This document shows positions 4,492-62,339 of a stretch of DNA of 64,000 nt, in pieces; position 1 is the stretch's first letter; the number at the start of each line of letters is the position of its first letter. The translations under genes and the position numbers were made by a program. The notes under the pieces are model-generated. The model was not told the DNA's origin, ran no database searches, and saw nothing but the letters and a program-made list of their open reading frames with translations. Location: assembly GCA_029907255.1 (NCBI GenBank), contig JARYMF010000013.1, positions 1 to 64,000 on the forward strand, read 5' to 3'. This stretch comes from Armatimonadota bacterium (lineage in GTDB: Bacteria > Armatimonadota > UBA5829 > DTJY01).

Positions 4492-4540
4492 CAAGTGGTT
4501 GGGAATCCAGCCGTGTTAGGAGAGAGGAAGAGTACAAGTG

Positions 4541-5335
4541 ATGCATAGATTTAGAGCAGCTAGAATTTTAGCATGGTTATTGGTTGTTTTGCTAAGTATT
4601 CCTTATTTAGCAAGCGGTGCTCTTGCAGCCGGGAAGTCGGAGATTTATACACAGACGGTAGTGACGTTCCCGCTGGATGTTGTAGACAACGAGAATATTA
4701 AAGTTGCTGAAGAACTCAGCATGCTATTAAATCATGGCTTGGAAAGCAGTCCGAAATATATCGTTCTGCCTTTTTCCACCCGTCTGCCGGCGATACAACG
4801 ACTCGTCGTTTCTCAACCAGAGAAAAAGCTGAGTTTTGAGGGTCCTTTCTTTAGCGACCAAGCTAGCATAAATCGCGCGCTTGATTTAGCCAGATTGTTG
4901 TCAGCCGATGTCGCGGTTGTTGGCTCGCTAGATGAGTGCGTGTGGGACGCGGCAAAAGGACAGGCAAGAGTGACTGCTACCCTAGAGTGGTATGATCTCA
5001 AGACTGGCAAAAAAGTAGACACCCTGACTGCTACTGGCATAAGGGCAAGGTCTGCCGGTGATTCCACAGCAACCCAGAAAAGTATAACAGCTGAGGCGGT
5101 GAAAGAGTTAAGCGAAAAACTTGTTTCTGGCATAACCGGGCAAGAATATCATGCTGAAACGACTTCCAAGCCAGCAGCTGTAGCTAAGACAAACGGAAAA
5201 AGCAAGAAGAATTCATGGCTGCCGATGTTGCTGCTTTCTTTAGGCGTAGGTTTGCTCCTCGGAAGTGGCGGCGGAGGTGGCGGAGGTGGTTCTGCTGGCG
5301 GAGGGGATGAATTGCCACCACCTCCACCGTTCTAA
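4541..5335 (+). CDS. Secreted/anchored envelope protein, paralogue 1, Gly-rich tail
   Basis: 264 residues if started at ATG 4541; a GTG directly before it at 4538 is an equally possible start, and AGAGGA precedes both. An N-terminal signal peptide (hydrophobic LLVVLLSIPYLASGALA) leads into a mixed alpha/beta domain, about residues 30-195. That domain has the feel of CsgG/FlgT/TolB-N-type periplasmic domains (VVTFPLDV, then ADVAVVGSLDE), but the assignment is only suggestive. A lysine-rich linker, a hydrophobic segment (LPMLLLSLGVGLLLG) and a run of glycines with a proline-rich end finish the protein. The next gene is similar in length, signal, domain and hydrophobic-glycine tail, so the two are paralogues. 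They probably share an operon with the large Ig-repeat protein. Function unknown. Confidence 0.85.
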   Translation: MHRFRAARILAWLLVVLLSIPYLASGALAAGKSEIYTQTVVTFPLDVVDNENIKVAEELSMLLNHGLESSPKYIVLPFSTRLPAIQRLVVSQPEKKLSFEGPFFSDQASINRALDLARLLSADVAVVGSLDECVWDAAKGQARVTATLEWYDLKTGKKVDTLTATGIRARSAGDSTATQKSITAEAVKELSEKLVSGITGQEYHAETTSKPAAVAKTNGKSKKNSWLPMLLLSLGVGLLLGSGGGGGGGGSAGGGDELPPPPPF

Positions 5336-28502: not shown

Positions 28503-28632
28503 CGGGATTTTCGGTGTTTTGCTTTGGAGCATTGTTAGACGGCTTGCAGACACCTAAGTATCGAACACGCAGAGGAACACTGTTTGAGTGGAAGTCGTAT
28601 ACAAAGAGGATACCAATTTTGGGAGCAACATA

Positions 28633-43452: not shown

Positions 43453-44286
43453 ATGCCCGAATGGCTCGGTGCAGCGATTGCATTCATATATGGGACGGTG
43501 GTCGGCAGTTTTCTCAATGTATGTATCTGGCGTATGCCGAGGGATGAGTCAATCATCCGGCCAGGTTCCCATTGTCCATCTTGTAAGACACTCCTCCGTG
43601 CATGGGATCTGGTCCCCTTGCTCAGTTTCTTAATTCAAAATAGGCGCTGCCGTTATTGTGGTGAGCCAATTAGTTGGCGGTATTTCTTGGTTGAATTATT
43701 GACGGGAGGATATTTCGCAGTAACATATATCTGGTTCGGATACAGCGTGAACTTTTTTGCGAACGCGCTTTTTGGAGCTGCACTAATCGCAGTTTTTTTT
43801 ATAGACTTAGAACATTGGATTATACCAGACCAGCTAAGCCTTTTTGGGATAGTAGTTGGTTTGGTACATGATGGAATTGAGTTGGCAATCGGGGGTAGGC
43901 AACCATATTGGATTCCAGTACCGGGTACGGATTTGCTGTTACCTGTGCCACAATCAATAGCAGCGATCATAATCTGCGGCGGATTTTTCATGGCAATCGC
44001 CGTTATCAGCTATTATGTCTTCAAGAAAGAAGGCATGGGCGGCGGCGATATTAAGCTAGCAGCAGCGATAGGTGCAAACTTAGGAATATGGCCTTCGATG
44101 GTATCATTCCTAATTGCGGTGGCGCTAGGCAGCTTGATTGGCATTGGCTTGATTTTGGCAGGCAGGAAAACAAGAAAAGACTATGTTCCTTTTGGGCCAA
44201 TGATGGTTGCCGGTGCAATAATAGCAATATTTTTTGGCCAGCGAATACTGGATTCATATCTAATTTTTAGTGGACTTGGCAACTAG
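43453..44286 (+). CDS. pilD: Prepilin leader peptidase/N-methyltransferase PilD
   Basis: 277 residues. The first part has the zinc-like pairs CPSC and CRYC of the methyltransferase region (43585-43665). The peptidase region has the two catalytic aspartates, FIDLEHWIIPD and MGGGDIKL, amid eight or so membrane segments. It cuts the leader of the pilin-like proteins that follow. TAGGAG lies about 15 bases before ATG 43453, a rather long spacing. Confidence 0.95.
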   Translation: MPEWLGAAIAFIYGTVVGSFLNVCIWRMPRDESIIRPGSHCPSCKTLLRAWDLVPLLSFLIQNRRCRYCGEPISWRYFLVELLTGGYFAVTYIWFGYSVNFFANALFGAALIAVFFIDLEHWIIPDQLSLFGIVVGLVHDGIELAIGGRQPYWIPVPGTDLLLPVPQSIAAIIICGGFFMAIAVISYYVFKKEGMGGGDIKLAAAIGANLGIWPSMVSFLIAVALGSLIGIGLILAGRKTRKDYVPFGPMMVAGAIIAIFFGQRILDSYLIFSGLGN

Positions 44287-45436: not shown

Positions 45437-45439
45437 TTG

Positions 45440-47236
45440 GTGAAGCCAATGAAGCTTCTGGTGCGATTAAAAAATGAGCAAGGTATTTCACTAGTCGAGG
45501 TTCTGACAGCAATAGTCATATTCCTCGGCGGCATACTCATGGTAGTACGCATGTTTCCAGGTGGTTTTGCCGTCGTAAAGCACAGCGAAGACGTTACCCT
45601 TGCAAATCGCCTTGCCCAACAGGAGCTCGAGCGGTGGAAAGGTATGGCTGCCAATCTTCCTGGCGGAATCTTGCCTTGGGGTTGGAATGAAACCTCCGGC
45701 GCCTATACCGTGCTTCCTGATGTTAGTCCGGACAACTTGCGCGACCCTGTCGAACCTAGCGATGGGTGGCCAGCAGGGTTTAACATGTACTATTACACAG
45801 ATGTTAACAAATTCCGCCACATCTATGCCGAAGCTACCAGGATTCCCATGCCATTAAACCCAGCGGCCCCCGATTCCTTAGGTTCGATTTACATACTGGG
45901 ATTCAGCCCCATAGCATGGGATGGCCCAGAATCCATTAAGGTTTATAGCGGTCCGATGCGACGGCGAAATGTTTGGCTTGGGATTCCTACGCTCAGAAGC
46001 CTTAGTGAATATGCCATTGATTACGACAATGCAATTATCTATCTGCGGGCTACTCCCTATCCCCGGCGATTTATAATTACCTACTCCTATTGGGACAATG
46101 ACCCCTTGGTGGATGGCAGACCTGACTTGGTTCCGGTGGTTAGCCAAGAAATTATTGTCAATAGCAATACTGCCAAGCAAGTTGACCCCTACACTGTGGC
46201 AGTAGATATTCCCGGCCCAGCAGGAACAAAGCTGTCTACAGAACCTGGTTACATGTTTATTGACCACGGCAGCGATTCGCTGCATCGAATGTTCGAGCTG
46301 ATTGATGCAGGTGCTCAGTGGAATCCGAACAATCCGTATGAATACAAAGTTTTAGACTATGTAGCCGGCGTTATTTATTTTAACCCATATGGATATGGCT
46401 ACGAAGAATATACCGCACGCGGAAAAATGCCTTTGATTGCCTACATAGACTATAATGTTCTCGATTGGCATATTATTCGTGAGGAGCGAAAACTCCCCGA
46501 CCGCATAAACAGTCCAGCAGATTGCGAGTTTAAACTTACCCTTCGGTTTATAAAAAAGGCTGGGGAAACCATTGAACTGAATGGCCAAAAATATGAAGGA
46601 TTGGCGGCATATCCACCTTATAATTATCTTCCATATGATGTATTAGCGCTCGACGTGGAAACTGGCGCATACTATACAGAAGATAGCAAAATGAGCGACG
46701 GAACTCCAGCATTGCAGGTTAATTATAAAGACGGCATAATCCGCTTTCATCCTTCGTTTGCCGGCAAAACATTTCGCGTCTACTACCGCGCAGATGGGGA
46801 TTGGGCGGTTCAAGTTTATAAAACCTATGATGTATACCGCAAAAGCGATAGGCTGAGCTTGGATTACCGCCAATACCATATAAACAACAATGGCGTAATG
46901 ACTTTCACCAGATGCTATGCTGGCATGGCAGTAGCAGTGGATTATACCTTCGAGGCTACCATCCAAGGGCAGGGGCGCTTAAGGCTTACCAGGAATGGCG
47001 ATACTTTCCGCATTTCGGAGGCTACGGGCCCCGGAGGTTACTGCAGTGTTGATATCCGCCAAAGATTGTTGGACTTATATGGTCCAGACTCCGACCCGAG
47101 AATTCTATTTGTAAGCAAGGTCTATGGCGTTACCCTCGGCGCAAGGGTTATTTGGCGTGACTCCGGCCGCGCGCTGAGAGCTGGCAAATGGAAGTCGGCA
47201 GATATACAGACATATCTGACGCGGGCGATGCAGTAA
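45440..47236 (+). CDS. PilV-like minor pilin with a very large C-terminal region
   Basis: About 598 residues. Start uncertain among TTG 45437, GTG 45440 (best spaced after AGGAAG) and ATG 45449. The prepilin leader is EQGISLVEVLTAIVIFLGGI, with cleavage before ISLVE. The pilin part (LANRLAQQELERWKGM) resembles PilV/type II minor pilins of normally about 170 residues. Most of the remainder is beta-rich and contains at least four copies of a short module of the form DY..G.I.F...V.V.Y (about 46007, 46348, 46718, 46885). The same module recurs in the propeller proteins downstream. A pilus-tip role is inferred. Confidence 0.8.
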   Translation: MKPMKLLVRLKNEQGISLVEVLTAIVIFLGGILMVVRMFPGGFAVVKHSEDVTLANRLAQQELERWKGMAANLPGGILPWGWNETSGAYTVLPDVSPDNLRDPVEPSDGWPAGFNMYYYTDVNKFRHIYAEATRIPMPLNPAAPDSLGSIYILGFSPIAWDGPESIKVYSGPMRRRNVWLGIPTLRSLSEYAIDYDNAIIYLRATPYPRRFIITYSYWDNDPLVDGRPDLVPVVSQEIIVNSNTAKQVDPYTVAVDIPGPAGTKLSTEPGYMFIDHGSDSLHRMFELIDAGAQWNPNNPYEYKVLDYVAGVIYFNPYGYGYEEYTARGKMPLIAYIDYNVLDWHIIREERKLPDRINSPADCEFKLTLRFIKKAGETIELNGQKYEGLAAYPPYNYLPYDVLALDVETGAYYTEDSKMSDGTPALQVNYKDGIIRFHPSFAGKTFRVYYRADGDWAVQVYKTYDVYRKSDRLSLDYRQYHINNNGVMTFTRCYAGMAVAVDYTFEATIQGQGRLRLTRNGDTFRISEATGPGGYCSVDIRQRLLDLYGPDSDPRILFVSKVYGVTLGARVIWRDSGRALRAGKWKSADIQTYLTRAMQ

Positions 47237-47265
47237 GCGGTGAAAAAGAAGGCTGCTAAGAGAAG

Positions 47266-49047
47266 ATGAAACGATTTCTCAAATCCAATAAGGGATTCAC
47301 GCTCTTAGAAATACTGATCGTCATTGCCTTGACGGTGATTGTTCTGGGACTGGTCTTTATACCGGTTACCAGGACTTTTGAATTTACTCGACAGGCCGAA
47401 GTGATGGTCAGGACCCAGGACAACGCGCGCATCGCCATGGAGCAGATAAGCCGTGATTTGGCTGACGCCATGTATGTTTTCGACAATACGCGAGACCCAA
47501 TCAATTTTAAGGTAAAAGATGCAACAGGAAAAACAGTTTTCGTCCCGGTATATTACGCCAAAATTGATTTGGTTCTTCCGCGCATGAGGTGCTATTGTAC
47601 TAGCCCGAAACATCCTAATAACCAGCCGAGGGATTTTCCAAGACACGACCCTTCTAATCCCGATTTTGACGAATCAGCGCCACGGTGTAAGTATGATGGC
47701 TCATTGCTGGAAATCCGGCCCGCCGAGCCACTAGCGCCTGATACTTTTATTGTTCGCTATTTTATAGGCCTAAGAGACCCGACAGCAGAGTATTCGAATA
47801 GTTATGCGAGCAAGACAGCAGCCCCGGGTACTGATAATATGTTTGTCCTTTACCGGGCAGAGTTTAGTCTCTATGATGATAACTTATTTGATCCCAGCAT
47901 TCCCGTGGAGGACCGACTGTCTTATCCAAACTTTTTCTATGATGAACCATACTGCAGGCGCTGGAAGCAAATAAGCAGGCCTATGGTTACGGTGGAGAAT
48001 ACCGACCTAGTAAACATTAGGTTCGAAGGTGTCAATCCAATCGTTATGCCAACGGTAAAGTTTATGCCAACGGCCGTCTATAACGACCCAATGGTTCCAA
48101 CTATGGAAAAGAGTGATGCTCCAGAGTTTGGCGATGCACCACCAACCGTTTATAAAGCAACCTATGGACATTGGGTTTTGCCCTATGAAGTCATGCTGTT
48201 GCGAAAAGATCCGAAGAATCCAGGCTCGCATATATTGTATAAGACAGCTCAGGGCACCGATGGAAATGGCAATCCGTTTATAGGCATCTTCAGGGATGGA
48301 AAGCTGATATTCAATATAACAAAATACCTAGCTACGAAGAGCACCAGTAAATATGGCGCTGGGGTAATCGAACCAGCGAAGCCTGAGGTTGCCTTCACGA
48401 TTGATCCGGTTAAAGGCACTGCGAATTTCGCCTTTCCGGTAGTAAATGACCAAATCAGCAGCAAAGCGGGCGGTACAATGGCGATAAGCAAAATGGGTAG
48501 CACTGACGATATCAACGCGGCTTATATTAGTTCGGGATACCGCGACCGATACCGCCGCTTCCTAATCAATGACCCAACTGATACTTCAGACCCAGTTTCA
48601 GAAATACTACTTAATGCACGGGTTGTCCCGATGTCCGAGCGTGTAGTAGCACCTTGCGCCACCCCGGGTCCAAACTATGGAAAACCAATTCTGTATAGTC
48701 GGACTCCACTATATTGCTACGAGCCAGATTATAACCAATACAAGCTGGATATTGACTATGGCATTGGAAGTAATGGAACACCTTGTGAAGGCGTCGCGGC
48801 AATTTTCTTCCATTCCCTTCAGACCCAGGAGAGAGGGTCGGGTGTACCATTGCCGCCGGGTAAAGACAATGTCTTTGTCTTTTATCAGGTGCAAAACAAT
48901 CTTGCAGATGATACATTGCGAGCAAATTATGTGACAAAGAGCTTGATAACGGTGACGTTAGGCATAAAAATGTATGACCCAGCATCAGGTAAACCACAGA
49001 ATATCGAACTTACAAATAAGGTGCGCATTAGGAACGTTGCCTCATGA
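47266..49047 (+). CDS. PilW-like minor pilin, oversized
   Basis: 593 residues; GAGAAG is close to ATG 47266. The leader NKGFTLLEILIVIALTVIVLG has the cleavage before FTLLE and Glu5. MVRTQDNARIAMEQISRDLADA is the PilW-type stretch after the helix. The long body is not recognised; it includes paired cysteines (CYCTSPKH, CKYDG). Typical PilW is about 300 residues, so this is about double. The stop overlaps the next start by four bases (ATGA). Confidence 0.82.
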   Translation: MKRFLKSNKGFTLLEILIVIALTVIVLGLVFIPVTRTFEFTRQAEVMVRTQDNARIAMEQISRDLADAMYVFDNTRDPINFKVKDATGKTVFVPVYYAKIDLVLPRMRCYCTSPKHPNNQPRDFPRHDPSNPDFDESAPRCKYDGSLLEIRPAEPLAPDTFIVRYFIGLRDPTAEYSNSYASKTAAPGTDNMFVLYRAEFSLYDDNLFDPSIPVEDRLSYPNFFYDEPYCRRWKQISRPMVTVENTDLVNIRFEGVNPIVMPTVKFMPTAVYNDPMVPTMEKSDAPEFGDAPPTVYKATYGHWVLPYEVMLLRKDPKNPGSHILYKTAQGTDGNGNPFIGIFRDGKLIFNITKYLATKSTSKYGAGVIEPAKPEVAFTIDPVKGTANFAFPVVNDQISSKAGGTMAISKMGSTDDINAAYISSGYRDRYRRFLINDPTDTSDPVSEILLNARVVPMSERVVAPCATPGPNYGKPILYSRTPLYCYEPDYNQYKLDIDYGIGSNGTPCEGVAAIFFHSLQTQERGSGVPLPPGKDNVFVFYQVQNNLADDTLRANYVTKSLITVTLGIKMYDPASGKPQNIELTNKVRIRNVAS

Positions 49048-51686
49048 GCGGGTGGTGTAAACGAATGCAAAAAGATCAACCAGGCAGAAATACATTAGCT
49101 AACCAAAGAGGCCAGTCGCTCATACTGGCATTGACAATTATGTTCCTTTTGCTCTTCCTTGGCGGCATATTTGTTGCTCTCATTGCTCGAAACTTGGTGA
49201 GAGCACAAAGAAGCGGCGAAAGCTTGTCAGCGGAGTATCTTGCCGAGGTTGGTATACGATATGCGGACCACCAACTAACCTACAGCGAGGAAGGGGCGGA
49301 CTGGCGGCCAGTGCCGACATTCCCGAAAGTAGTCCAAGCAATAGCAAATGGCCAAAACCCTGAGTCCTTACCTCCGGCAGATAAACCCAACCCATTGGAC
49401 CCTGATTACCAGTGGCTGATAAAAGGTTTCAGCAGGTTTAATTATGGTAAAGGACGATTTCTCCTCCTCGTAACCTATGAGCCAAAGCGTGGCGACCCGA
49501 TGTCAAAGTATATCAAGATAACGTCAATTGGCCGCTCGGGAATTGTTGACCAGAATGACCCTACTACTTGGACAAAACAGCCTTCTCGGTTGCGCTCTGA
49601 ACTCGTTGCATATAAGGCAATTTGCATTACCGATTACGCCAGGTTCATAACAAACAAAGATAGAAGGACAGGTGCATTACCCCTAGGCACTCCAAGGTTT
49701 ACAACAAACTTCGGCGAGCTAGTGAATAATACTATTCATGGCGCACCTATCCGCGTAAATGGCGATTTAATCTGGCATGGCAAGAACTACGTTTGGCTGG
49801 ATGCAAGCAGAGGCGATGTTGTTGAAGTGGCTGGCGATATAAGCCATGCCGCGCCGCCTTCGCCATCGGAACCAGATGTCACCGCAGTCTATGTTAATGG
49901 TGTTCAGGCAGAGGAAAGCAGTTCGCCGACTTTCAATACGAGTCCAGATGATCCTAATGCTGAGATTGGAAAGTACAGAGATGGCAGGCTCGAACCTGAC
50001 GTCCAAAAGAGGCCAAGGCACATTACAAGGATTGAGCCACCTTTGATAGATGCACTAGGTACCGCAAGCAGGGTAACAAGATATCGTGAGCTTACTCGGA
50101 ATTCAGGCGAGTGGAGGCAGACAAGACAAGGCGAATGGTATAATACAGGCTATTACGGCTGGGGCAAGGGTATTTATATCGCAAACTTTCGCGACGTCCA
50201 AACTGAAAGCGAGGGTTATACCCTTCGGGCAAACTGGACTCAGCCTGGAACAGAGTATTGGAATGGCCCATATTACACGCCGCCTGCTGTAACTATCACC
50301 CTTTTCCCTTACGACCTCGATAATGCTGATAATGATAATAAACCTGAGACCGGACCAGATATTGTTATAACCAGGGATGAGAGAACACGCTATATATGGC
50401 GCGACCAGGATGGCAATCCTCTTCCTGCTACCGGCGAGCAAATTATAATGCATTATCCAGAAAACGGCGTGATATTTGCCGAGGGGAACATACGGATTAA
50501 AGGCGTGCTTCCTCCAAAGGTCCAGCTCACCGTTGTATCTGGCGCAACCATCTACATTGATGGAAACATTCTCCGAAATCCAGCCGAGCCCAATGAAAGC
50601 GCAATCGCTCTGCTAGCCGAAGATTATGTATGCGTAAACACGACGCAGTTTTTTGGGCCTGCAAGAGAAGTCCCGCTTCCAAATCCAGGCGCAGAACATT
50701 TTGACGTTTCTCCAAAATCGTCGTTCTGGTTTAGTTTTGCATTTGGAGCAGATCCTGCTAGGGCATATCCGAACATTCCTGTCAGGCTTTATGCGAGACA
50801 TACAGCAGCTCCTGGTGGCGCAAGCTATATAAACCTTTTGTTAAACTATCCGCCAAGCCAAGCCGAAGTAAGTTCCAATCCATATTATTCGTTCTACATG
50901 TTTAATCCAAGTGCAAACTTAGTTCCTTTGCGATATGTTTATCCTCTTGGCGATATGATTTTGAATCCAAACACTTATTGGACCCAGCAATACGATGAAT
51001 GGGAGTGCGCGGCATTCCCACTGGAAATCTCCTATCCTGGTAATAAGAGTCCAAATTATGCGATTTGGGGGCTACCGGGCAAGGAGAATTATATTGGTTT
51101 CCAGCTCGACCAGAGTATGCCGTTTGGGACTGGTACGCAGGATTATTATCTCTCGCGAGCGTTCATCCAACCGCTAGATATAAGGATAGAAGCACTCATA
51201 TATGCGCAGAATAAGTCGTTCTTTATTATCCCCGGTCCGTGGATGAATCCTGATCCAACGGACACAGAGGAAAACTTCCGAAGGCTTGGTCGTAGGCCGC
51301 CTGGAACAAATCCACTGTGGCCGTTTTATGGCCAGCCACCTGATATAAGAATAATTGTCTACGGCTCCATAAGCGAGAATTTGCCTGCGCCCATTGGTGA
51401 TTCAAGCGCTTGGATGGAAAAGTGGGGTTGGATTCCGCCTGAACATGGAACGTCAGGTGAGTTTGTTGATGCATATAGACCGCCTCTCGACCCCAACCAG
51501 GATGGGAAAACAGACAAAAGGGCGGGTTTAACCTTTGTTTACGACGATCAGCTGTCATATCCTTATGTAGCAATCAGCCCAACTCAGGAGCTTCCAGTTC
51601 GCCGTGATGAGTATGGTAGAGTTCTGCCACTACTTCCAAAGTTGCCAGTAAGCCCGCAAATGCTTTATATGGGTGAACCCACTTAA
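49044..51686 (+). CDS. PilX-like pilus assembly protein, oversized
   Basis: 880 residues. The N-terminus has RGQSLILALTIMFLLLFLGG, then ARNLVRAQRSGESLSAEYLAEVGI. This is the PilX_N pattern; mature position 5 lacks Glu, as is common in PilX. The following hundreds of residues contain beta-helix-like runs (GVIFAEGNIRIKGVLPP, TVVSGATIYIDGNILRNP) such as those in large PilX-type proteins. Start codon overlaps the preceding gene. Pseudomonas PilX is below 200 residues, so this form is exceptional in size. Confidence 0.8.
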   Translation: MSGWCKRMQKDQPGRNTLANQRGQSLILALTIMFLLLFLGGIFVALIARNLVRAQRSGESLSAEYLAEVGIRYADHQLTYSEEGADWRPVPTFPKVVQAIANGQNPESLPPADKPNPLDPDYQWLIKGFSRFNYGKGRFLLLVTYEPKRGDPMSKYIKITSIGRSGIVDQNDPTTWTKQPSRLRSELVAYKAICITDYARFITNKDRRTGALPLGTPRFTTNFGELVNNTIHGAPIRVNGDLIWHGKNYVWLDASRGDVVEVAGDISHAAPPSPSEPDVTAVYVNGVQAEESSSPTFNTSPDDPNAEIGKYRDGRLEPDVQKRPRHITRIEPPLIDALGTASRVTRYRELTRNSGEWRQTRQGEWYNTGYYGWGKGIYIANFRDVQTESEGYTLRANWTQPGTEYWNGPYYTPPAVTITLFPYDLDNADNDNKPETGPDIVITRDERTRYIWRDQDGNPLPATGEQIIMHYPENGVIFAEGNIRIKGVLPPKVQLTVVSGATIYIDGNILRNPAEPNESAIALLAEDYVCVNTTQFFGPAREVPLPNPGAEHFDVSPKSSFWFSFAFGADPARAYPNIPVRLYARHTAAPGGASYINLLLNYPPSQAEVSSNPYYSFYMFNPSANLVPLRYVYPLGDMILNPNTYWTQQYDEWECAAFPLEISYPGNKSPNYAIWGLPGKENYIGFQLDQSMPFGTGTQDYYLSRAFIQPLDIRIEALIYAQNKSFFIIPGPWMNPDPTDTEENFRRLGRRPPGTNPLWPFYGQPPDIRIIVYGSISENLPAPIGDSSAWMEKWGWIPPEHGTSGEFVDAYRPPLDPNQDGKTDKRAGLTFVYDDQLSYPYVAISPTQELPVRRDEYGRVLPLLPKLPVSPQMLYMGEPT

Positions 51687-51776
51687 TATGGAATATTTGG
51701 AACAAGACGGGCTGTGAAGTAATCAGAATAAATGGAAAACATGGGCTACACCGGTTGAAACGGTGGTGAATTTTTC

Positions 51777-54700
51777 ATGAGATATAAGTTTATAACAATA
51801 ATTGCAATTTTGGTTTGCATTGTATTGCTGACCAGCGTAGTGCAAGCGGCTGGCTTTGTATATTCAGGTAGCCGAAAAGAGATCAAAGCTGGCGTTTTGA
51901 TCTTTAAATACAATAATGCAGGAAATATTGAATACAGCAGAGCAAGCGACCCATATATATTCTATGTGATGGACCAGCGGAGCGAGCTCAAGCCAGCCGG
52001 CTGGGAGTTCGTCAATCCTTTGGCGCCCTCGAGAGTGACACCAGACATTATTAATAGATGGGGGTCAGCTTATAAAGCTGGCGACCAAGTAACAAAGGAC
52101 ATGGCTTGCTACTGGGAAGTCAAGATAGACGCTCCATTTTCTGATTTAGCAAAGTTCGACGTGCTCTTTATGACATGTCCTTCCAGTTCAAACCTTTTGC
52201 TTAAGCCACGTGATATCGAAAAACTTCGGAAAATGGTTGACGCCGGCGGTGTAATTTGGATCGAAGACCGTGGAGGCGCTAGATTCAGTGACACAAATGC
52301 TTTTTTCATACGCGATTTGGATTTTGGCACAGGCGGTTCGCCAGGATTAGCAGATGTTCCCAACCCAGCACATCCGCTGCTTACCATGCCTTTTACTCTT
52401 AGCTGGGAGGAAGTAAGCAACCTCGGACCAGGTCCAGAATTGATTGGAAGGAACTTTATATCAGCCGCAGACCCTCACTATTTTGCCCCCGTAGTTCTGT
52501 CACAAGGGAGATTAATTGTGGCGGCTGCTCAATACGGCAGCGGCCATATCGTTGCTGTTGGTGAGAACGTGGGGACTGCAATTAGTGCCGCTGTAGGTAA
52601 CGGCCCATACGCAAAACAGAATTGGATGCTTGCCCAAACCGAAGACTTGAAATTCGCCTACAATATTGTAAGCTGGGGCTCGGAGCATACTACTTTCCAT
52701 AAAAATCCTCGCCATACAGGTTATTCATTTGAGCGAATGAGTAACAACTTGGCGATACTATGGAAATTCCTAACACCGACTGGCTCAATGGAAACAGGTT
52801 CCTCGCCAGCTTTCCTCGACAATATGGTTTTTTACGTTGACAACCAGGGCATACTCCATGCGTTTGATCTCATGCCAGAACGAGATAGAGACAACGATGG
52901 AAATCCTGACGATGGTAAACCCGATTTTGGGACAGGTACACCTTACGATGAAGTGTGGTTTGATCAGGTTGGCCCAGCATCTTCGCCCACGACTGCCTAC
53001 GTTTCGGTGGGTGGTAACTTTATCCCTGCTGTGTTTGTGACAACAAAAGAGGGCAAAGTTATCGGGTACTGCGCTCGCGACGGAAGCCAGAAACACGACG
53101 CCCTTAATCTCGGTGTTCCTTTTGCAAGCGATTACGATATTCCCGCGCCAACCTTTTGTGATGGCGTGCTATATTGTGGAAGTTCGGATGGCAGGCTTTA
53201 TGCTCACGACTATAACAGAGATATTTCCTGGGTGTGGCCAAGGCCGCCTCAGTTCTCAGGTATTGGCCAGGTTTTAAACTCGCCTACAATTGGATATTTC
53301 CGCAATCCGGCGACCGGAGCAGTTGACCAGGTGCTTCATCTCGCGACACGTGGTATCAAAGGAACATCCGATGGCGCCATCCAGTGTTTCCCAATTAAAG
53401 TGTTCGGCGAGCCCCTTAAAAAGGTCGGAGCTACTGGGACAGGAACAAGCATTTATGAAATTGCTTTACCAAGCACCGCCATAATAGAAACCCCGGGTTC
53501 ATATCAGGTCTATTATGTGCTTCCCGATGGAACAATAGAAGATGTCACAGGCAATGTTATAAGAATTAACCAGCCAGGAAAGTTCGAAATCAACGAGAGC
53601 GCTCCTAAGCAAATTCCTCCTGGAACTGGGTTATTCGCCAATTATGAGGTAGATTATGCAAGCAGTCTAGCCACCGGCATGTATCGCCAGCGTATTACCG
53701 TAAAAACGCGTCGCCCAACGGGAATAGGTCCTGAGGGTGTCGGAGTTCTTTCCACCCCAGCAGCAGGGCCAAATGATGTGCTGTACTATATTGCAGAAAA
53801 CGGCTCAATCTATGCTGCTCAGGAAAGCGGACGCGGCGCGGCTGTCATTAAATGGCGATGGTTCCTTGGCGATCCTGGCGCAGTGCAGCTTCTTGGCGGT
53901 CAAGCTTTGCCCGTTGGGTCGCCGGTGATAGGCGATGACATAGTCTATGTTGCTGTAAATGTAGACGGGCAGGGGATGATTCTCGCCTTCGAAGCTGACC
54001 CCTCCTTTGTAATCAATACTGGCGTCCCAATTGACCGCCGCAGACCAGTCGAAGTATATCAGTTTGATACGCTGAATCCGGGCGTCGAACCAGTGCCAAT
54101 AGGAGGAGCTCCTGAAGATAGCGGAGGCACTGCCGCGTACCGAGTAGACTATGAGAGGGGAAGAATTACATTTGTCAACTTCCGCGATCCTCGAAATAGT
54201 CAGACCGAGCTTTCCGCCTCTCAAGACCTGGTGGTAAAGTTCTACATAGCCGAGGAAGCAGGTGGCAGTGGTACGCCAGAGTCTCAGTGCCATGCTGCAT
54301 TTCCGCCTAGCGCAGGCTCGGTAGCTTCCACCTGCCAGTGGTATCCAAATGACTCATGGAATAATCTAAGATGGTTTGCAAGGCTGCCGAATAATCCATT
54401 AGGCAAAACAGAAATAACTTCATCGCCCGCATTGATTGGAGACACATTGTTTGTTGGTTGTGCGAATGGCATGATTGCTGTCTTGGATGTCGGCAAGCTA
54501 AATGAGAAATTCCGTGGCCCATGCTCAAATGTTTCCCAAGACCCCGAGAGCGTTAAGTTAATCAGAGTTTTTCCTGCAATGCCCGGCATAAATCCTCCCA
54601 GCGTTGCGGGCAACGTATGGGCGACTGTCGCAGGGCAGAACGGAATCCTTGCGGTAGCGACACAAGCTGGATTGGTCGTTCTCCACAACGGTCTTACACT

Positions 54701-55865
54701 TGTGGCTGACGGCAAGCGAATACTCGAAATTGATGCAGGCGGCTCAGCCGTTTGGTCGTGTGATTCGACGATAAGCTTCGTTAGGAGCACGTCTCCAGCT
54801 GGCGATGTTTACAGCCAGGTCAACACGCCTCTAAACAGGCCTTCGGTAGCAAGGCGAACAGTAGGTGGCGGAATCGTTGTTGCAGATACCGGAAACAACA
54901 GGGTTGTGCTAATAGACCGGGCTGGAAAAGTGCTTTGGCAGATTAGCGATTTTGTGGACCCTCGTAAGAGTACGCCGCAGGATCCTTATAAGCCAAATGA
55001 TTCGTTGAACGAGCCAACCGACGTTTATATGTGGATACAGCGAGACAGAAGCACAGGTTATCCAGAATATCACTACCTAATTGCCGATGCAGGAAAGTAC
55101 CGAATTGTCGAAATTGCCGCAAAGTATATTGATAATGTCGGATTTGTGAATGAACTTGTCTGGACAACTCGAACTTTCGAGCAAGGAAAACGCTACAGAT
55201 TTAAGAAACTGTGGTCGGATTTTCCACAAGGTCGAAGGTCAACCCTAATAGCAATTGTTACAAACTACCAGCCACAATCGCCCGACCCATCCGATGCAAC
55301 ATTGCCCGACCCAACACTTGCTCCCGAGGCGATTGGTAGAGAACGTGAGGGTGGCGCGCTTGTCGTTATTGACCCAAGCCCTGATATGACAGCCGCTGAC
55401 CTTGCGACCAATCCTTCTGCCGGTCTGATAAGAACCGTTGTTACGGAAATAGAGGCAGTGAACGGGAAAAAGTTCCAGTTGTTCAATCCAACTTGCTTTG
55501 ATAGATACAAAGTCAGTAATACGCGCTATTACGACCTAATAACTGATTCAAGGGGAATTTATATCATAGACCATGCCGTGAGCGGCGGCAAAGACGTTAT
55601 TCAGGATATCTATGCTTGCATGTCAACAGACTACTTCAAAGCCACAGGGCGTTTGATGATGCCTGTGCATGGAAAGATTTTGCCGAGTCTCAATGTTTTG
55701 ATAACAAATATGGCATCTTGGGCAGGGGGACCGTTTGGGTTCAGCGGAGAAATTGTAGAGTTGGATCCAACCAGCTGGCCAAGCAACTGCGGGATTGTTG
55801 GAACTATTAGCGCTATTCCTGGAAGTTACGAACTTCAGCAGCCAAGTAGCGCCGAAAGGCAGTAA
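51777..55865 (+). CDS. Giant secreted beta-propeller (PQQ-like repeats) protein, PilY1-like position
   Basis: 1362 residues. Signal peptide about 1-25 (IIAILVCIVLLTSVVQAAG). Residues about 30-300 hold a Rossmannoid domain similar to DUF4159-type modules (FDVLFMTCPSSSNLLLKPRD, RKMVDAGGVIWIEDRGG). From about 305 are PQQ-like propeller blades (YVDNQGILHAFDL, GVLYCGSSDGRLYAHDY, TLFVGCANGMIAVLDVG). One DY..G.I.F module lies at 54138-54251. No catalytic site is evident. PilY1 of Pseudomonas, encoded next to pilVWX, is also a propeller protein with a different N-terminus, so a PilY1-like tip or adhesin role is plausible, though sequence homology is not shown. Confidence 0.75.
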   Translation: MRYKFITIIAILVCIVLLTSVVQAAGFVYSGSRKEIKAGVLIFKYNNAGNIEYSRASDPYIFYVMDQRSELKPAGWEFVNPLAPSRVTPDIINRWGSAYKAGDQVTKDMACYWEVKIDAPFSDLAKFDVLFMTCPSSSNLLLKPRDIEKLRKMVDAGGVIWIEDRGGARFSDTNAFFIRDLDFGTGGSPGLADVPNPAHPLLTMPFTLSWEEVSNLGPGPELIGRNFISAADPHYFAPVVLSQGRLIVAAAQYGSGHIVAVGENVGTAISAAVGNGPYAKQNWMLAQTEDLKFAYNIVSWGSEHTTFHKNPRHTGYSFERMSNNLAILWKFLTPTGSMETGSSPAFLDNMVFYVDNQGILHAFDLMPERDRDNDGNPDDGKPDFGTGTPYDEVWFDQVGPASSPTTAYVSVGGNFIPAVFVTTKEGKVIGYCARDGSQKHDALNLGVPFASDYDIPAPTFCDGVLYCGSSDGRLYAHDYNRDISWVWPRPPQFSGIGQVLNSPTIGYFRNPATGAVDQVLHLATRGIKGTSDGAIQCFPIKVFGEPLKKVGATGTGTSIYEIALPSTAIIETPGSYQVYYVLPDGTIEDVTGNVIRINQPGKFEINESAPKQIPPGTGLFANYEVDYASSLATGMYRQRITVKTRRPTGIGPEGVGVLSTPAAGPNDVLYYIAENGSIYAAQESGRGAAVIKWRWFLGDPGAVQLLGGQALPVGSPVIGDDIVYVAVNVDGQGMILAFEADPSFVINTGVPIDRRRPVEVYQFDTLNPGVEPVPIGGAPEDSGGTAAYRVDYERGRITFVNFRDPRNSQTELSASQDLVVKFYIAEEAGGSGTPESQCHAAFPPSAGSVASTCQWYPNDSWNNLRWFARLPNNPLGKTEITSSPALIGDTLFVGCANGMIAVLDVGKLNEKFRGPCSNVSQDPESVKLIRVFPAMPGINPPSVAGNVWATVAGQNGILAVATQAGLVVLHNGLTLVADGKRILEIDAGGSAVWSCDSTISFVRSTSPAGDVYSQVNTPLNRPSVARRTVGGGIVVADTGNNRVVLIDRAGKVLWQISDFVDPRKSTPQDPYKPNDSLNEPTDVYMWIQRDRSTGYPEYHYLIADAGKYRIVEIAAKYIDNVGFVNELVWTTRTFEQGKRYRFKKLWSDFPQGRRSTLIAIVTNYQPQSPDPSDATLPDPTLAPEAIGREREGGALVVIDPSPDMTAADLATNPSAGLIRTVVTEIEAVNGKKFQLFNPTCFDRYKVSNTRYYDLITDSRGIYIIDHAVSGGKDVIQDIYACMSTDYFKATGRLMMPVHGKILPSLNVLITNMASWAGGPFGFSGEIVELDPTSWPSNCGIVGTISAIPGSYELQQPSSAERQ

Positions 55866-55925
55866 AGAATTATGTCAAGCCAAAGTTTGAATAAGGCCAG
55901 GTTGCTCCCCAGACGGGAGGTGAAA

Positions 55926-58900
55926 ATGAAAATGAGAACAAGGATTATTATATATTTAGTTGCCACCGCAATTTTATTCATAGTTTCTGGCGATCCTCTA
56001 TCTGCCGCTGGACAGTGGCCGATGTTTCGCCATGATGCCAAGCGAACAGGTGTGGGAGAGAATGGCTCTCTGGTATATGAGAAGCCTGTTCCAATTTGGA
56101 TATTTCCCTATCCCGAAAAGGAATGGCGGGAACCAAACAATGTGATTGATGATAAGGATTCAGCTGGCAGATTTAATGCGACCCCTGAATGGCAGCGGCA
56201 ATCGGCAGATGCGAAATCGCCGGATGCTTATGCGGATGACTACCTATACGCTATGGTGACGAATGACGGTGGAGAAGTCGCTACATGGACATTCGAAATG
56301 GCAGATTCTGGGGCTCCACGCCAAGTAAAGTTCTATATCTATGTGTGGTTCCCCTCATACGTCTCCGGTTTTCCTCATACAACGGATGCTCAATATTCAG
56401 TTGTTATAAATGGTGAAACCGTCGCCACATTTTCTATTGACCAGACTTCTGGTGGCAATTGGGTTCCGCTAGGAACGTCGCCATTCAAGCTGAAACTAGG
56501 TGCGGGCGGCGATACGCTCCAAATTAGGTTATCCAATAAAACATTCAAGCGAGAAAGGCCGCAAAATACGGTTGTAATTGCCGATGCGGTTAAGATTGAA
56601 CAGGACACGGGAGTGGCGCTTTCTTCTCCGATTGCCAGCAACGAAAACCCAATCGTAGTTGTGCCGCGCATTGAAACTCGTCTAAAGCCTTCGGTTGGTA
56701 CACAAACGGGGCGGTGCGATGTCGGCGTTGTATATGGCGTTGGTACCGAAGCAGATTCAGGTATTCCAACTCAAACAGACGACCGTGGATGGCCCGCATG
56801 GCAGTTTCCAAGTGATGAAAATGCGTGGATTGAAGGTGGTTTCTCAAGCACGCCTGCTATTGGAAAGCTGAATGGCCAAGAAGTTGCCTTTGTAGCAGGA
56901 GCAGATGGCACTATTTATGCTTTGAGAACAGATGCCACGCCGCTTACTGATGCTGAGAGGTGTGTATGGCGAGGGCCAGGATGGTTTGTTGACGATAGCG
57001 ACGTAGCGTTCACCTCAAGTAGCGGCGGTTGGGTTGAGGGAGCTCTCCATGGCGGCTATCAAGGCATTGGTTACCACCATGTCATGGCGGACGCAAATGG
57101 CGATAGCAAATTTGAATGGTTCCCAGAGGATATTCCAGAGGGTTCGTATGCTATTTATGCTTGGATACCACCGTCAACTGCAGACGAGCCATATATTTCC
57201 GATGCTAGATATACTATAAAGGTCGGCACGAAAGAAAATCCGCCTGTAATAGTTGACCAGCGCGACGGTGGAAAGTGGATAAGGCTAGGCGGTCAATATA
57301 TTGTGCAGACGGGCGAGCGGATTTCAATAACACTTACCAGCAAAACTAGCCTATCGCTTGAGGAACCTAGATATGTCGCAGCCGACATGATTAAAGTAGT
57401 TCCTTCGGAATTAGGAAGCTTCCAATTCTCGTCTCCTGTTGTTGATGACATTAGCGACACAAAAAGGCTGTATATTGGTAGCACTAGCGGCCGTGTGTAT
57501 GCGCTGCAACCAGGCGAACCAGAACCAGTTTGGGTGTATCCACCACCTGAAAAAAGTTCAATCGGAGCCATATACGCCTCGCCAGCGTTAGACGGAACCG
57601 TTCTCTATGTGGGCTCTAGCGATGGGCGTGTGTATGCTATCAACGCAACAACCGGCAAGCTTCTTTGGGTGTATCCGCCTGACCCGGCTCAAGGCGAGCA
57701 AATAAAGACTCTTGGTCAAATATCAAGCACAACCGCTGTTGGTGATTATGTTTATGTGTGCACTGGCGGTTATAGTCCGACATGGGGTCCTCCTGATGAC
57801 CCCTCCAAGCAATATAAGATGTCAGGTAGAGTAATTGCGCTTAGCAAGTCTGATGGCAGCTTGCAGTGGATGTATCCGCCAGCCAGTCAAGAGAGTAAGG
57901 GTGCATTTCTCTATTCGTCGCCGCTTATTATCAAGCGGCCAGGAGACGTGGACCCTATTTTGGTGGTTGGATCGTCGGATGGAAATCTTTATGCTGTCAA
58001 CGCCGAGAATGGACTGGGACTTGTGGAGCAAGGCCAGTGGGAGAGCTATCCCGACTTATTTGAAGCTATTTACTCAAGCCCAGCAGGCGTGATTATTCCT
58101 GGATCGAATATTCCGATGGCGTTTGTGGGAACCGAAAGCAATCGGATTTATGGGATTGACCTAAGAAATGGTACTGAAAAGAAAATTTGGTCATACTCAC
58201 TTTATGGTCGGGTTACATCATCGCCAGCATTAAGCGAGGGCAGGATGTATGTAACCGATACCGCCGGTGCAACTTGGGCATTCTCAAGCAGAAGTGGCGG
58301 TGGTGCTGGTGGGCTGGAGGATTTCAACAGGACGATTGACCCGAACTTCGAACCCGAAGATACTAGCGGGGCCGGGGAGAATGCCGAGCCAGAAGTAGAT
58401 ATCTTTCCAAAAGAGATTTATGACAAACTCCAGGAGGGCACCGCACCAAACGACTTGCCTGAAAACTTGCATACAGTTGCCCTAGGTTATCCAAGGAGTG
58501 GACCACTGTCATTTGAATGGGGTGAGGCAATCTATGTGATAGCTTGGAACCTCCGACCACCGAAGGATTCCGAGGGTAAAGATGTCAATGAAGGCAAGGA
58601 ATTTGGCGATGATGGCTTCAAGGAAAAGACCGAAAGCAACTGTGTGGTTATTTTCAAGAGCAGGGGGCCTGGGGAGGAAAGCGATCAGTCGCAATCATTT
58701 ACTATGTCCTCAAAAGGATGCTTTAAAAGCAAAGATACCGGCAAATACATACATTGGGCTAAGTACTGCTATGTATTGGACAGTTCTTCCCACAGCAAGC
58801 CACAGTCGCCAGGCAGCCGAATAACAGTATCCGTTCAGGAAAGACCTGGTGGAAATGACAAGAAAGCCGTTCCAGGCGATTCCGTGGTGCCGGACCATAG

Positions 58901-61900
58901 CAAGGACATGAGTGATAGAAAGAAATACGTGCCGCAGATTTTGGCAATCAATAACCCCCTAGGGCTTGTGTACAATGACACCACAGGCATAGGTGTCTCG
59001 GCAAGCGTGGGTGTAGAGGCACAGGCAAATTTGTTCAAGACAAGGAGAAACCTAGCCTGTACCTCAATGAATGGCAATGACCTTATTGGCTATATGCCTT
59101 GGGTTGAAGGCGGTGTCGTAAGCCATGGCACGAGTTCTGAGGAAAGAATCGTTAATGTTTGCGATAGAAGCCTGCTTTTCAGAATAAACCAAAGAATAGA
59201 CAAGTTCAGAGTTGAACGCCAGGACCTCGCCTGGACGGGAGGACCAGATAGGGTAGTAAATCCTTTGCCGTGGGATACACTGCCGCCTTATGTTGGCATA
59301 AACTCAAGCCTAGATTATCCTGATATCCGCTCACGCAATCTTTCTTGCGTAATGGCAAGCACGCGTGAAGATCCTACGCAGGGAACCGTGAGCCTCTGGC
59401 CATCATTGCCTATCCAAAACAGTTCAGATGAATGGGCTGTGGGGGTCAATCCGGTATTGATACAATACACCATTCCACGATTCCAGCCGGCGAACGTACC
59501 AAATGGTGTTTCGCCTACTGCTTTGGAGTGGCGGAATTCAGGTTACACTGGAAAAGTCTACTTCTATGTTGATTCGAACAGGGATGGCAGACTAAATAAG
59601 CCTGCTGAACTGGGTCAATCGGTACTAATTCAGCGACAAGTTAGTGGAGCAAGGGCTGAGGCATACCGCGAAGTTGAAGCACAAGTGCATGTTCCTGTGG
59701 ACCAGCGCGTTGAAGTTGTAGAAAAGACCATTGACATTGGCAAGGTGCCGCAGGGATTCGGATTTACCGTGAATCCAAATACTGGCCTGCCGATGACATT
59801 CCTTGAGAATCTTGGTGATTGTTTGTTGAGTTGGAATGGGCCAAAGCGTGGCTTCGGCGAATGGTTCAAACCTTTTACTGTATATAATCTTGGCAATGTC
59901 AATTTGATGAACATTCGCTTGGCTCGCAAGGTAGAGCCACCTGGCAGTCGTCTGTATTCGCTTGATTTATATAGCGATACAGTCCAAGACCCAGTTACGG
60001 GAGGGTCAGGAAATGTGCTGCCGGCGGATTGTGTGGTTTCTTCGCTAGACCCAAGGTTCCAGTCAAGTCCAGGGTTTACACCTTTGCCTAATTTGCCTCC
60101 GTTAACCAGAACCTTCCACAAAGCGAGGGTAGGCGAGTCACCAACAGTGCTGAGGATTCCCGATGTTCCTGATCGTTGGCTTGCATTACGACCGGGGTTG
60201 ACTCCAACGCTGCCGGTACTTAGTGTGGCGGTTCCCATTGGCCAGCCAGTCGGCACATATTCGCAAAAGTTTACTTTATATCATGACTGGCCGCAAGCAG
60301 AAGAAATCTACAGAGTGGGAGAGTCACTTGGTAATCCGATAATTGAGGTAAAAGTGACGGTTACCGAGGCTAGGCTAACGGATGGTACAACTCCTGGAAC
60401 GCTTCCGCAAATAGACGCGGGTGCCTCAATAAACACGGGTGATATGTCTCCCGCAGCATATATAGATCCGCAAAGCGGCAACCTGCATATATTTTGGTCT
60501 AGCAGTAGATATGGTGGGGATACTGGAGGTTCTTCTTCTACGCCAGTTGCTTCCGACCCATGGTATTTATACCAATCTACACTGCCATGGCTAGGAGATA
60601 GATGGGGCTTTGCAGCGCCAGCAGCTGGGCAGTGGTGGTCACCAACAAGCGCAAATGCAGCTTTCCCAAATCCCAGCGGTGTTGCTGATTTCTTCCCACA
60701 GCCACCTGAAGGTGCTAGCGGCAGTCTTTTGCCGGGAAGCGTGAGGTTTAGCAATCCGTCTGTTGCCGTTGACAAAATGAGCGGCAGGGCTTGGCTCTTT
60801 TTTGGAGGACAGGCTTATAAAGATCAAACAGCTATTGCTGGTGTAGACCGAAAGGTTGCTGAACATAGGGTGTTCTATACCGAGCTGGTAGGTGGAAGTC
60901 CGAGTTCAACAATTTATACCACAACGCACGACTGGACAATGCCTAAGTACGGTATTAGAGGGCTAGCAACTAGAATTGGCAGCGACCCGTCAAATTCAAA
61001 ACTATGGCTCTGGTCGTTCTGGTATGGTGGAAATAACAACAAATGGCGATTATATTTCAACGCAAACCCAAACCCCGATGGTCCCAATGCTGAGAGCAAT
61101 TGGTCTAATGATGCCCAGCTCTCGGTGCCTCGCGGGCTTACATCTGTAGCTGAGCCAGTTCCCTTGTTTAGGCCTACTGCTGGTCGAACGACAAACGTCA
61201 TAGATGTTGTTTATTCGGGGTTCTCGGCATTCCACAAAAATTCGGACATTTACTTGAGCCGATATAAAGTTCCGCAGAGAGTTAATCGAGACGGAAGTTT
61301 GAACATGGATATTGTAACCTTGCCTGAGATTAGGGACGAAGAATTGACCCGAGACGCAAAGACCTCGATTTGGTACTCAAGGCATGTGGACTGGGATGCG
61401 AGCAAACCTAGCTTGGACTCTGATGATCCTCCAAGTACCGCTACGAGCTTTACCGTGCAGGTAGTTGACCCTGTAGAAGGCAAACTGAAGCTAAACGTAG
61501 GTAAGTATATCCAGGACTCACAAACGCACGCTTTGATATTCGATTATTCGGATAACTCTGATCCTTTACAAGTAAAGCTGAAAGGATTATATCGTGCTGT
61601 AATAATCAATCCAGAAGAAGGCACAGTTAAATTCCTGCGCACTCCGGAGGCCGGAGCTAGAATTTTAGCCACCTATAAGCCTAAGGGTTATAGGCTAACG
61701 ACCGATGATGTTTCGGATGTTTCGCCATTTGTTCTTCTGGATAGCGATCCGAACCCTCGCTATCGCCCCGGGCCAGGAAATCCGTTCGTTCTGCCAAAAG
61801 CTGATTATCCTGAAGATATCGGTCCGCCAGTGGACCGCCTATGGCTATTCTGGAGGCGTCCGGCTCCTGGTGGCAAAGGAACAGGTTTGTATTACAAGGC

Positions 61901-62339
61901 TTTCAGGAACAGCGTTAAGTTGAATAGGCAGGTTGCTGTAACTCCAGAGGGCGTCGCCGATGTTGAATCGGTGACCGTGGTAGGCGCATACCCGCCGCTC
62001 GAGACTCCTGTAGAAACCGATTGGGTAAAGAACCGTCTCTACTTTACTTCTATTGAAGAAGGCAAGAGAGTTGAAGTCAGATACAAACCTGCCGGGTCGT
62101 CGGAATATATTACGGAGCAGCATACAGTAACATTCCAAGAGGAACCTGACGCAAAAGGGAACGCCTTCGGTTACCTAACAGACCAAATAGTAAACGAAGG
62201 ACAGATTTATGCGATAAAGAATACCTATTCAAACGCATTGTCGAGCGAAATCTGGGTTTTCTGGACGAGCACTCGTTCAGGGAATACCGACCTATATTTC
62301 GAGACTATTTGTCCACGATTCTATGGAGCTAAGTACTAA
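55926..62339 (+). CDS. Giant secreted propeller protein with golvesin-like domains
   Basis: 2137 residues from ATG 55926, with GGGAGGTG about 4 bases upstream (55872 would add 18 residues lacking a site). Signal peptide about 1-30, then QWPMFRHDAKRTG, typical of PQQ-propeller starts. Two golvesin/xanthan-lyase-C-like domains follow: about residues 70-225 (ends VVIADAVKIE) and about 355-505 (WFVDDSDVAF, GGKWIRLGGQY, AADMIKV). Propeller blades lie between and after (YVGSSDGRVYAINATTGKLL, LVVGSSDGNLYAVNAENGL). The C-terminal third is a separate set of beta-rich domains with two or three DY..G.I.F-like modules. It is probably exported by Sec and displayed with the pilus or on the surface. Function unknown. 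Confidence 0.78.
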   Translation: MKMRTRIIIYLVATAILFIVSGDPLSAAGQWPMFRHDAKRTGVGENGSLVYEKPVPIWIFPYPEKEWREPNNVIDDKDSAGRFNATPEWQRQSADAKSPDAYADDYLYAMVTNDGGEVATWTFEMADSGAPRQVKFYIYVWFPSYVSGFPHTTDAQYSVVINGETVATFSIDQTSGGNWVPLGTSPFKLKLGAGGDTLQIRLSNKTFKRERPQNTVVIADAVKIEQDTGVALSSPIASNENPIVVVPRIETRLKPSVGTQTGRCDVGVVYGVGTEADSGIPTQTDDRGWPAWQFPSDENAWIEGGFSSTPAIGKLNGQEVAFVAGADGTIYALRTDATPLTDAERCVWRGPGWFVDDSDVAFTSSSGGWVEGALHGGYQGIGYHHVMADANGDSKFEWFPEDIPEGSYAIYAWIPPSTADEPYISDARYTIKVGTKENPPVIVDQRDGGKWIRLGGQYIVQTGERISITLTSKTSLSLEEPRYVAADMIKVVPSELGSFQFSSPVVDDISDTKRLYIGSTSGRVYALQPGEPEPVWVYPPPEKSSIGAIYASPALDGTVLYVGSSDGRVYAINATTGKLLWVYPPDPAQGEQIKTLGQISSTTAVGDYVYVCTGGYSPTWGPPDDPSKQYKMSGRVIALSKSDGSLQWMYPPASQESKGAFLYSSPLIIKRPGDVDPILVVGSSDGNLYAVNAENGLGLVEQGQWESYPDLFEAIYSSPAGVIIPGSNIPMAFVGTESNRIYGIDLRNGTEKKIWSYSLYGRVTSSPALSEGRMYVTDTAGATWAFSSRSGGGAGGLEDFNRTIDPNFEPEDTSGAGENAEPEVDIFPKEIYDKLQEGTAPNDLPENLHTVALGYPRSGPLSFEWGEAIYVIAWNLRPPKDSEGKDVNEGKEFGDDGFKEKTESNCVVIFKSRGPGEESDQSQSFTMSSKGCFKSKDTGKYIHWAKYCYVLDSSSHSKPQSPGSRITVSVQERPGGNDKKAVPGDSVVPDHSKDMSDRKKYVPQILAINNPLGLVYNDTTGIGVSASVGVEAQANLFKTRRNLACTSMNGNDLIGYMPWVEGGVVSHGTSSEERIVNVCDRSLLFRINQRIDKFRVERQDLAWTGGPDRVVNPLPWDTLPPYVGINSSLDYPDIRSRNLSCVMASTREDPTQGTVSLWPSLPIQNSSDEWAVGVNPVLIQYTIPRFQPANVPNGVSPTALEWRNSGYTGKVYFYVDSNRDGRLNKPAELGQSVLIQRQVSGARAEAYREVEAQVHVPVDQRVEVVEKTIDIGKVPQGFGFTVNPNTGLPMTFLENLGDCLLSWNGPKRGFGEWFKPFTVYNLGNVNLMNIRLARKVEPPGSRLYSLDLYSDTVQDPVTGGSGNVLPADCVVSSLDPRFQSSPGFTPLPNLPPLTRTFHKARVGESPTVLRIPDVPDRWLALRPGLTPTLPVLSVAVPIGQPVGTYSQKFTLYHDWPQAEEIYRVGESLGNPIIEVKVTVTEARLTDGTTPGTLPQIDAGASINTGDMSPAAYIDPQSGNLHIFWSSSRYGGDTGGSSSTPVASDPWYLYQSTLPWLGDRWGFAAPAAGQWWSPTSANAAFPNPSGVADFFPQPPEGASGSLLPGSVRFSNPSVAVDKMSGRAWLFFGGQAYKDQTAIAGVDRKVAEHRVFYTELVGGSPSSTIYTTTHDWTMPKYGIRGLATRIGSDPSNSKLWLWSFWYGGNNNKWRLYFNANPNPDGPNAESNWSNDAQLSVPRGLTSVAEPVPLFRPTAGRTTNVIDVVYSGFSAFHKNSDIYLSRYKVPQRVNRDGSLNMDIVTLPEIRDEELTRDAKTSIWYSRHVDWDASKPSLDSDDPPSTATSFTVQVVDPVEGKLKLNVGKYIQDSQTHALIFDYSDNSDPLQVKLKGLYRAVIINPEEGTVKFLRTPEAGARILATYKPKGYRLTTDDVSDVSPFVLLDSDPNPRYRPGPGNPFVLPKADYPEDIGPPVDRLWLFWRRPAPGGKGTGLYYKAFRNSVKLNRQVAVTPEGVADVESVTVVGAYPPLETPVETDWVKNRLYFTSIEEGKRVEVRYKPAGSSEYITEQHTVTFQEEPDAKGNAFGYLTDQIVNEGQIYAIKNTYSNALSSEIWVFWTSTRSGNTDLYFETICPRFYGAKY

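Follow-up and report, generated by a model that had tools for sequence, protein, structure and literature searches.

Two large secreted propeller proteins in the place of PilY1: a candidate tip module in a type IVa pilus operon of Armatimonadota

PilY1 is treated as the standard tip protein of type IVa pili, and how phyla without PilY1 make a pilus tip is largely unknown. The question is raised by a stretch of DNA from an Armatimonadota bacterium (NCBI GenBank assembly GCA_029907255.1, contig JARYMF010000013.1, here C13; positions 1 to 64,000 of the forward strand, henceforth the window), in which three minor pilin genes (here V, W and X) of a pilus operon are followed by genes for two large secreted propeller proteins, Pr1 and Pr2. 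What stands at the tip of such a pilus, and is it PilY1? We consider it probable, with real room for doubt, that Pr1 and Pr2 constitute a two-protein tip or adhesin module of a type IVa pilus, PilY1-like in function but not of the PilY1 family; that they sit at the tip and mediate adhesion is suggested by analogy with known pili.

The operon (positions 39190-64000) comprises pilB, pilT, pilC, pilD, a pseudopilin gene, V, W, X, Pr1, Pr2 and pilM, all on the same strand and with neighbouring genes either overlapping or separated by gaps of a few to about 330 bases. A preliminary description of this DNA had listed the same genes, and all of them were recovered as open reading frames (ORFs) where it had placed them, in one direction and tightly packed. 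The features are as follows (window coordinates; lengths in amino acids, aa):

39190..40947, + strand: pilB, extension ATPase, 585 aa; MshEN and T2SSE domains; best NCBIfam model TIGR02538 (PilB)
40999..42165, + strand: pilT, retraction ATPase, 388 aa; TIGR01420 at 510 bits, exceeding the cut-off
42201..43427, + strand: pilC, inner-membrane platform, 408 aa; PF00482 twice; PilC models best
43453..44286, + strand: pilD, prepilin peptidase, 277 aa; PF06750 and PF01478
44329..45105, + strand: pseudopilin with prepilin motif, 258 aa; PF07963, GspG-like N-terminus
45437..47236, + strand: V, oversized PilV-like minor pilin, 599 aa; Glu5 present; weak match to TIGR02523 (PilV), E-value 0.004
47266..49047, + strand: W, oversized PilW/GspJ-like minor pilin, 593 aa; Glu5 present; PF07963
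49044..51686, + strand: X, oversized PilX/GspK-type minor pilin, 880 aa; without Glu5 (RG|QSLILAL)
51777..55865, + strand: Pr1, secreted, 1362 aa; DUF4159, eight-bladed PQQ/BamB-type propeller, NHL repeats
52884..52910, + strand: EF-hand-like calcium-loop motif DRDNDGNPD of Pr1 (residues 370-378); consensus Dx[DN]xDGxxD
55872..62339, + strand: Pr2, secreted, 2155 aa (likely 2137); two Golvesin_C domains, PQQ propeller, conserved central region, C-terminal sialidase-fold propeller
62542..64000, + strand: pilM, 498 aa, ending past the window at C13:64038; TIGR01175 exceeding the cut-off

PilB scored 654 bits against TIGR02538, which is below the cut-off of 675.65, and this model ranked above GspE. 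Downstream of the window, the same contig continues with pilN/O/P-like genes (so named by position and recurrence in relatives, two of them being without a Pfam match), a secretin (PF00263) and then rplJ and rpoB-rpoC. Judged from these sequences, the operon encodes a type IVa pilus-type machine with its own PilB, PilT, PilC, PilD, PilM and secretin. Directly before the pilQ-like secretin, in the stretch C13:66401-68933, stands a gene of its own for a 242 aa STN-domain protein, as if pilQ were two genes, and this gene pair was also found in relatives.

One indication of where Pr1 and Pr2 might act comes from the minor pilins that precede them. The N-termini of V and W are of the class III prepilin type, and Glu5 is kept in 45/46 orthologues of V, 47/49 of W and 44/44 of the pseudopilin. 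X also has a hydrophobic helix but lacks Glu5, with a hydrophobic residue at that position in all 55 of 55 orthologues. In Pseudomonas, Neisseria and Myxococcus, PilX is reported to have lost Glu5, and so is GspK, the pseudopilin nearest the tip (PMC7541494); by analogy, the loss of Glu5 in X together with its retention in V and W would be the PilX/GspK signature of a tip-most pilin. The preliminary description had seen Pr1 and Pr2 in the place of PilY1, and this view gained from the absence of Glu5 in the pilin before Pr1 and from the calcium-loop consensus that Pr1 has in common with PilY1. As a control we used an operon on a Legionella adelaidensis plasmid, the order of which (pilV-pilW-pilX-pilY1) is the same as V-W-X-Pr1. 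Its pilV, pilW and pilX products have 158, 331 and 169 aa, as against 599, 593 and 880 aa for V, W and X. Profile searches matched X to none of the solved pilins, and found neither a ComZ-like nor any other solved relative of it.

Pr1 and Pr2 both carry hydrophobic export signals and both score on PQQ-type propeller models, as the preliminary description had held. It had also given their lengths as 1362 and about 2137 residues: the former is exact, and the latter fits a Pr2 start at residue 19, which would yield a 2137 aa protein with an N-terminal signal peptide (the count from the first ATG being 2155 aa). In Pr1 a DUF4159 domain (detected in 12/19 orthologues) comes after the export signal, and then the PQQ-type propeller and NHL repeats. 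A structure model of residues 25-1224 (predicted local distance difference test, pLDDT, 78.6; predicted template modelling score, pTM, 0.77) contains an eight-bladed propeller at residues 322-972, in the middle of the protein, with Cake8, YxaL and BamB as its best structural matches (Z-scores 30-35, root-mean-square deviation [rmsd] 2.2-2.8 over 312-339 residues, 17-22% identity; top match Z-score 34.5, rmsd 2.2 over 312 residues). The PilY1 structure 3HX6, a seven-bladed C-terminal propeller, was not among the structural matches listed for Pr1, an absence that excludes nothing. Within the propeller, the motif Dx[DN]xDGxxD was aligned in 40/45 Pr1 orthologues; this is also the consensus of the functional calcium loop in PilY1 (PMC8833165). 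Going by this motif, Pr1 may bind calcium, the loop itself being modelled with low confidence.

In Pr2, the N-terminal 860 residues consist of two Golvesin_C domains and a PQQ propeller. A model of residues 960-2155 (pLDDT 76.3, pTM 0.72) places a second propeller at the C-terminus, on a sialidase/GH43 fold (Z-score ~23, rmsd 3.4, ~320 residues, 10% identity); the comparison with GH33 sialidase, a family marked by a catalytic arginine triad, Tyr/Glu and Asp, is at ~10% identity one of fold alone. The PQQ-propeller regions of Pr1 and Pr2 match each other (hhalign probability 94%, E-value 1.3e-7), so the earlier impression that the two proteins look unrelated does not hold. Nor does the claim that both are much larger than PilY1: Pr2 is unusually large, but Pr1, at 1362 aa, compares with 1444 aa for the Legionella PilY1, and the unusual sizes in this operon are those of Pr2 and all three minor pilins. 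For a possible small beta-motif, DYxxGxIxF, common to V, W, Pr1 and Pr2, hhalign probabilities stayed below 6%, and we make no claim for it.

How widely is this arrangement kept? A scan with the Pr1 profile over one genome per GTDB species gave 67 loci, of which all that are informatively named belong to Armatimonadota (Armatimonadetes, Chthonomonas, Fimbriimonadales and others), except two metagenome-assembled genomes (MAGs). One of these is titled WS1 and the other Propionibacteriaceae (UBA6122); as the latter holds an Armatimonadota operon, its name is probably wrong. Among 291 Armatimonadota genomes the profiles matched Pr1 in 239, X in 269 and PilM in 281, or in 172, 189 and 192, respectively, of the 194 good ones. 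A pattern scan limited to two short peptide patterns showed no Pr1 outside Armatimonadota. The order V-W-X-Pr1-Pr2-pilM is found again and again, from the closest genera out to other classes (25 regions of relatives and the 67 named loci); recurring as it does phylum-wide at a mean identity of 31-41%, it is far more than chance would give. In 60/60 loci where this is visible, X immediately precedes Pr1, mostly within 100 bases, and Pr2 is found within the next two ORFs after Pr1 in 40/54. Lack of a conserved neighbourhood in relatives had been named beforehand as what would refute the preliminary description; the neighbourhood proved to be conserved throughout the phylum.

Pairwise protein distances of V, W, X, Pr1 and Pr2 correlate at 0.91-0.99 (25 loci), which suggests that the five descend together vertically as a set; such correlation does not by itself mean that they touch. 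When the two genomes of the genus are compared, the ratio of nonsynonymous to synonymous substitution rates (dN/dS) is 0.05 for Pr1 and 0.07 for Pr2, indicating purifying selection.

Several observations weigh against a tip module of Pr1 and Pr2. The PilX_N profile PF14341 matched 0/35 X orthologues (the control PilX matches at 5.6e-14), and we therefore call X PilX-like by position and residue, and not a member of the PilX family as far as profiles can tell. In several families the operon is split into X-Pr1 and Pr2-pilM, which lie in separate places, so co-transcription of Pr1 and Pr2 is not obligatory. In families f32 and f33 (G228 and G234) the order is pseudopilins-V-W-X-pilM-N-O-P-secretin, with Pr1-Pr2 cleanly missing and about 130-150 bases from the end of X to pilM, and in G281, G031 and G036 a diverged V-W-X cassette is not followed by Pr1. 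Given such deep lineages, the pair is not needed for every pilus of this kind: V-W-X is able to do something without Pr1-Pr2, which cannot be indispensable to that machinery in all lineages. The clean absence in f32 and f33 also implies that Pr1-Pr2 is a discrete module, apparently either gained once early or lost several times. Finally, to our knowledge no pilus function has been described for DUF4159 domains.

The main alternative makes Pr1 and Pr2 substrates of the machine, exoproteins that it secretes, with X as the GspK-like recognition tip of a pseudopilus. The Glu5 loss in X fits this too, being common to GspK and PilX, and PilY1 itself has been compared with substrates of type II secretion (PMC7541494). 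That some lineages lack the pair but keep the cassette would be natural for a changeable cargo, and the fold of Pr2 is glycosidase-like. However, the operon has its own PilT, which is not part of a type II secretion system, as well as PilM and a PilQ-like secretin of pilus type, and the strict one-to-one placement of X and Pr1 noted above would be unusual for cargo. Profiles of GspC and GspL matched none of the operon genes tested. On balance we regard secretion of Pr1 and Pr2 as cargo as unlikely, but as the strongest competitor of the tip module.

Alternatively, Pr1 might be a true PilY1 orthologue that has diverged past recognition, in which case nothing would have been newly built and only Pr2 added. 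The operon place, the type of the preceding pilin, the propeller and the identical calcium-loop consensus are all as this would have it. Yet in a search with a PilY1 profile, such as the preliminary description had proposed, PF05567 matched 0/291 Armatimonadota genomes and neither Pr1 nor Pr2, while it detected the annotated PilY1 of the Legionella plasmid at 5.7e-57, and hhalign found no match between the Pr1 profile and that PilY1 (probability 0.7%). In known PilY1 proteins the propeller is seven-bladed and C-terminal, and the N-terminus is often vWFA or DUF4114 (PMC13190605); Pr1 has eight blades in a central propeller and DUF4159. What weak resemblance to the control PilY1 there is (a propeller-level match, E-value 1.8e-4) belongs to Pr2, not Pr1, and is as expected, given that PQQ-type propellers resemble each other. 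Orthology of Pr1 and PilY1 thus strikes us as improbable. By these comparisons Pr1 and Pr2 do not qualify as members of the PilY1 family, but the operon logic is the same. The earlier wording that the complex was independently built would stand in the sense that sequence comparison found no PilY1 homology, but not in a deeper one, all of these proteins being propellers of one very large fold superfamily.

PQQ alcohol dehydrogenases carry a vicinal cysteine pair that forms a vicinal disulfide. It is very improbable that Pr1 and Pr2 share no more than the operon and that each acts on its own outside the cell, as an enzyme or binding protein (a PQQ-type dehydrogenase, a glycosidase). This would account for the PQQ_2 and partial PQQ-dehydrogenase model matches and the sialidase fold of the Pr2 C-terminus, but the dehydrogenase models fall far short of their cut-offs (26 vs 480 bits), neither protein contains CC and hence such a cysteine pair, Pr1 is matched best in structure by BamB, YxaL and designed propellers, and the adjacency is kept phylum-wide at 31-32% identity.

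If Pr1 and Pr2 do form a tip module, its assembly could be pictured as follows. V and W would connect the pilus shaft to X, which, in the ultimate pilin position of PilX and GspK, would cap the minor pilin stack. Pr1, stabilised by calcium, would dock on X in PilY1's stead and cap the filament, and Pr2 would bind Pr1 or X and extend as the surface-binding part, presenting its Golvesin_C and sialidase-fold domains to surface polysaccharides. Retraction by PilT would then exert force on the attachment. A more general proposal, which we hold to be evenly balanced between right and wrong, is that a phylum without PilY1 relies on a tip complex of two non-PilY1 proteins (DUF4159-PQQ-NHL and Golvesin-PQQ-sialidase fold) that docks on oversized minor pilins, has arrived independently at the same calcium loop and is absent as one block in two deep families.

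If this were true, a phylum-wide replacement at the PilX junction, together with its natural absences, would reveal what a pilus tip cannot do without, the candidates being a Glu5-less cap pilin, a propeller and a calcium loop. It would also help to annotate two protein families that are among the largest conserved unknown ones of Armatimonadota, a phylum with some cultured members that are reported to bear fimbriae. Published Armatimonadota genome papers mention pilus and pseudopilin genes, as well as fimbriae in Fimbriimonas; the open-licence papers searched (PilY1 or pili with Armatimonadota or Chthonomonas) describe no tip protein for the phylum, and a description elsewhere is possible.

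The genome holds further pilus genes. A second type IV pilus assembly cluster (C3:160075-169717) has pilB, pilT, pilC, pilM, pilN-/pilO-like genes and a secretin, and at C8:15684-18660 there is a row of small prepilin-like genes, the last of which encodes a 550 aa PilX_N-like protein without Glu5 and with no propeller protein behind it. With the C3 cluster and the C8 minor pilins taken into account, the window operon is one of two pilus systems in this genome. Elsewhere in the window, positions 1-4491 (an ORF of 1412-1496 aa) and 4538-5335 (265 aa) have no Pfam match at E-value 1e-5. The same is true of a 700 aa ORF at 28588-30690, between argS and the genes preceding pfkB and alaS. A 655 aa protein at 6256-8223 has an N-terminal invasin/Big_1-type immunoglobulin (Ig) domain and is a possible surface protein.

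Among known systems, the locus most resembles the PilV-PilW-PilX-PilY1 operon of Pseudomonas, Myxococcus and Legionella, in its gene order and in the Glu5-less pilin preceding a propeller protein, as well as in the export signal, the propeller, the EF-hand-like Dx[DN]xDGxxD loop and the type IVa machine with PilT. It differs from that operon in the eight-bladed, BamB/YxaL-type propeller of Pr1, central and followed by NHL repeats in a protein without a PF05567 match, and in the DUF4159 domain standing where vWFA or DUF4114 would. It further differs in having a second giant propeller protein, in minor pilins about two to five times longer, and in that these genes are embedded in a pilB-to-pilQ operon. 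With GspI-GspJ-GspK, the pseudopilus tip of type II secretion, it shares three minor pilins in order, the last being the largest and without Glu5; unlike type II secretion, the operon has PilT, PilM (in GspL's place) and a pilus-type secretin. ComZ of Thermus thermophilus is likewise an unusually large minor pilin and has been proposed to lie at the tip (PMC6561018), but as a DNA receptor, whereas X precedes propeller proteins. Finally, BamB, YxaL and the designed Cake/Scone eight-bladed propellers have the fold of the central domain of Pr1; these are lone propellers, whereas that of Pr1 has insertions and the calcium-loop motif, and forms one protein with DUF4159 and NHL repeats.

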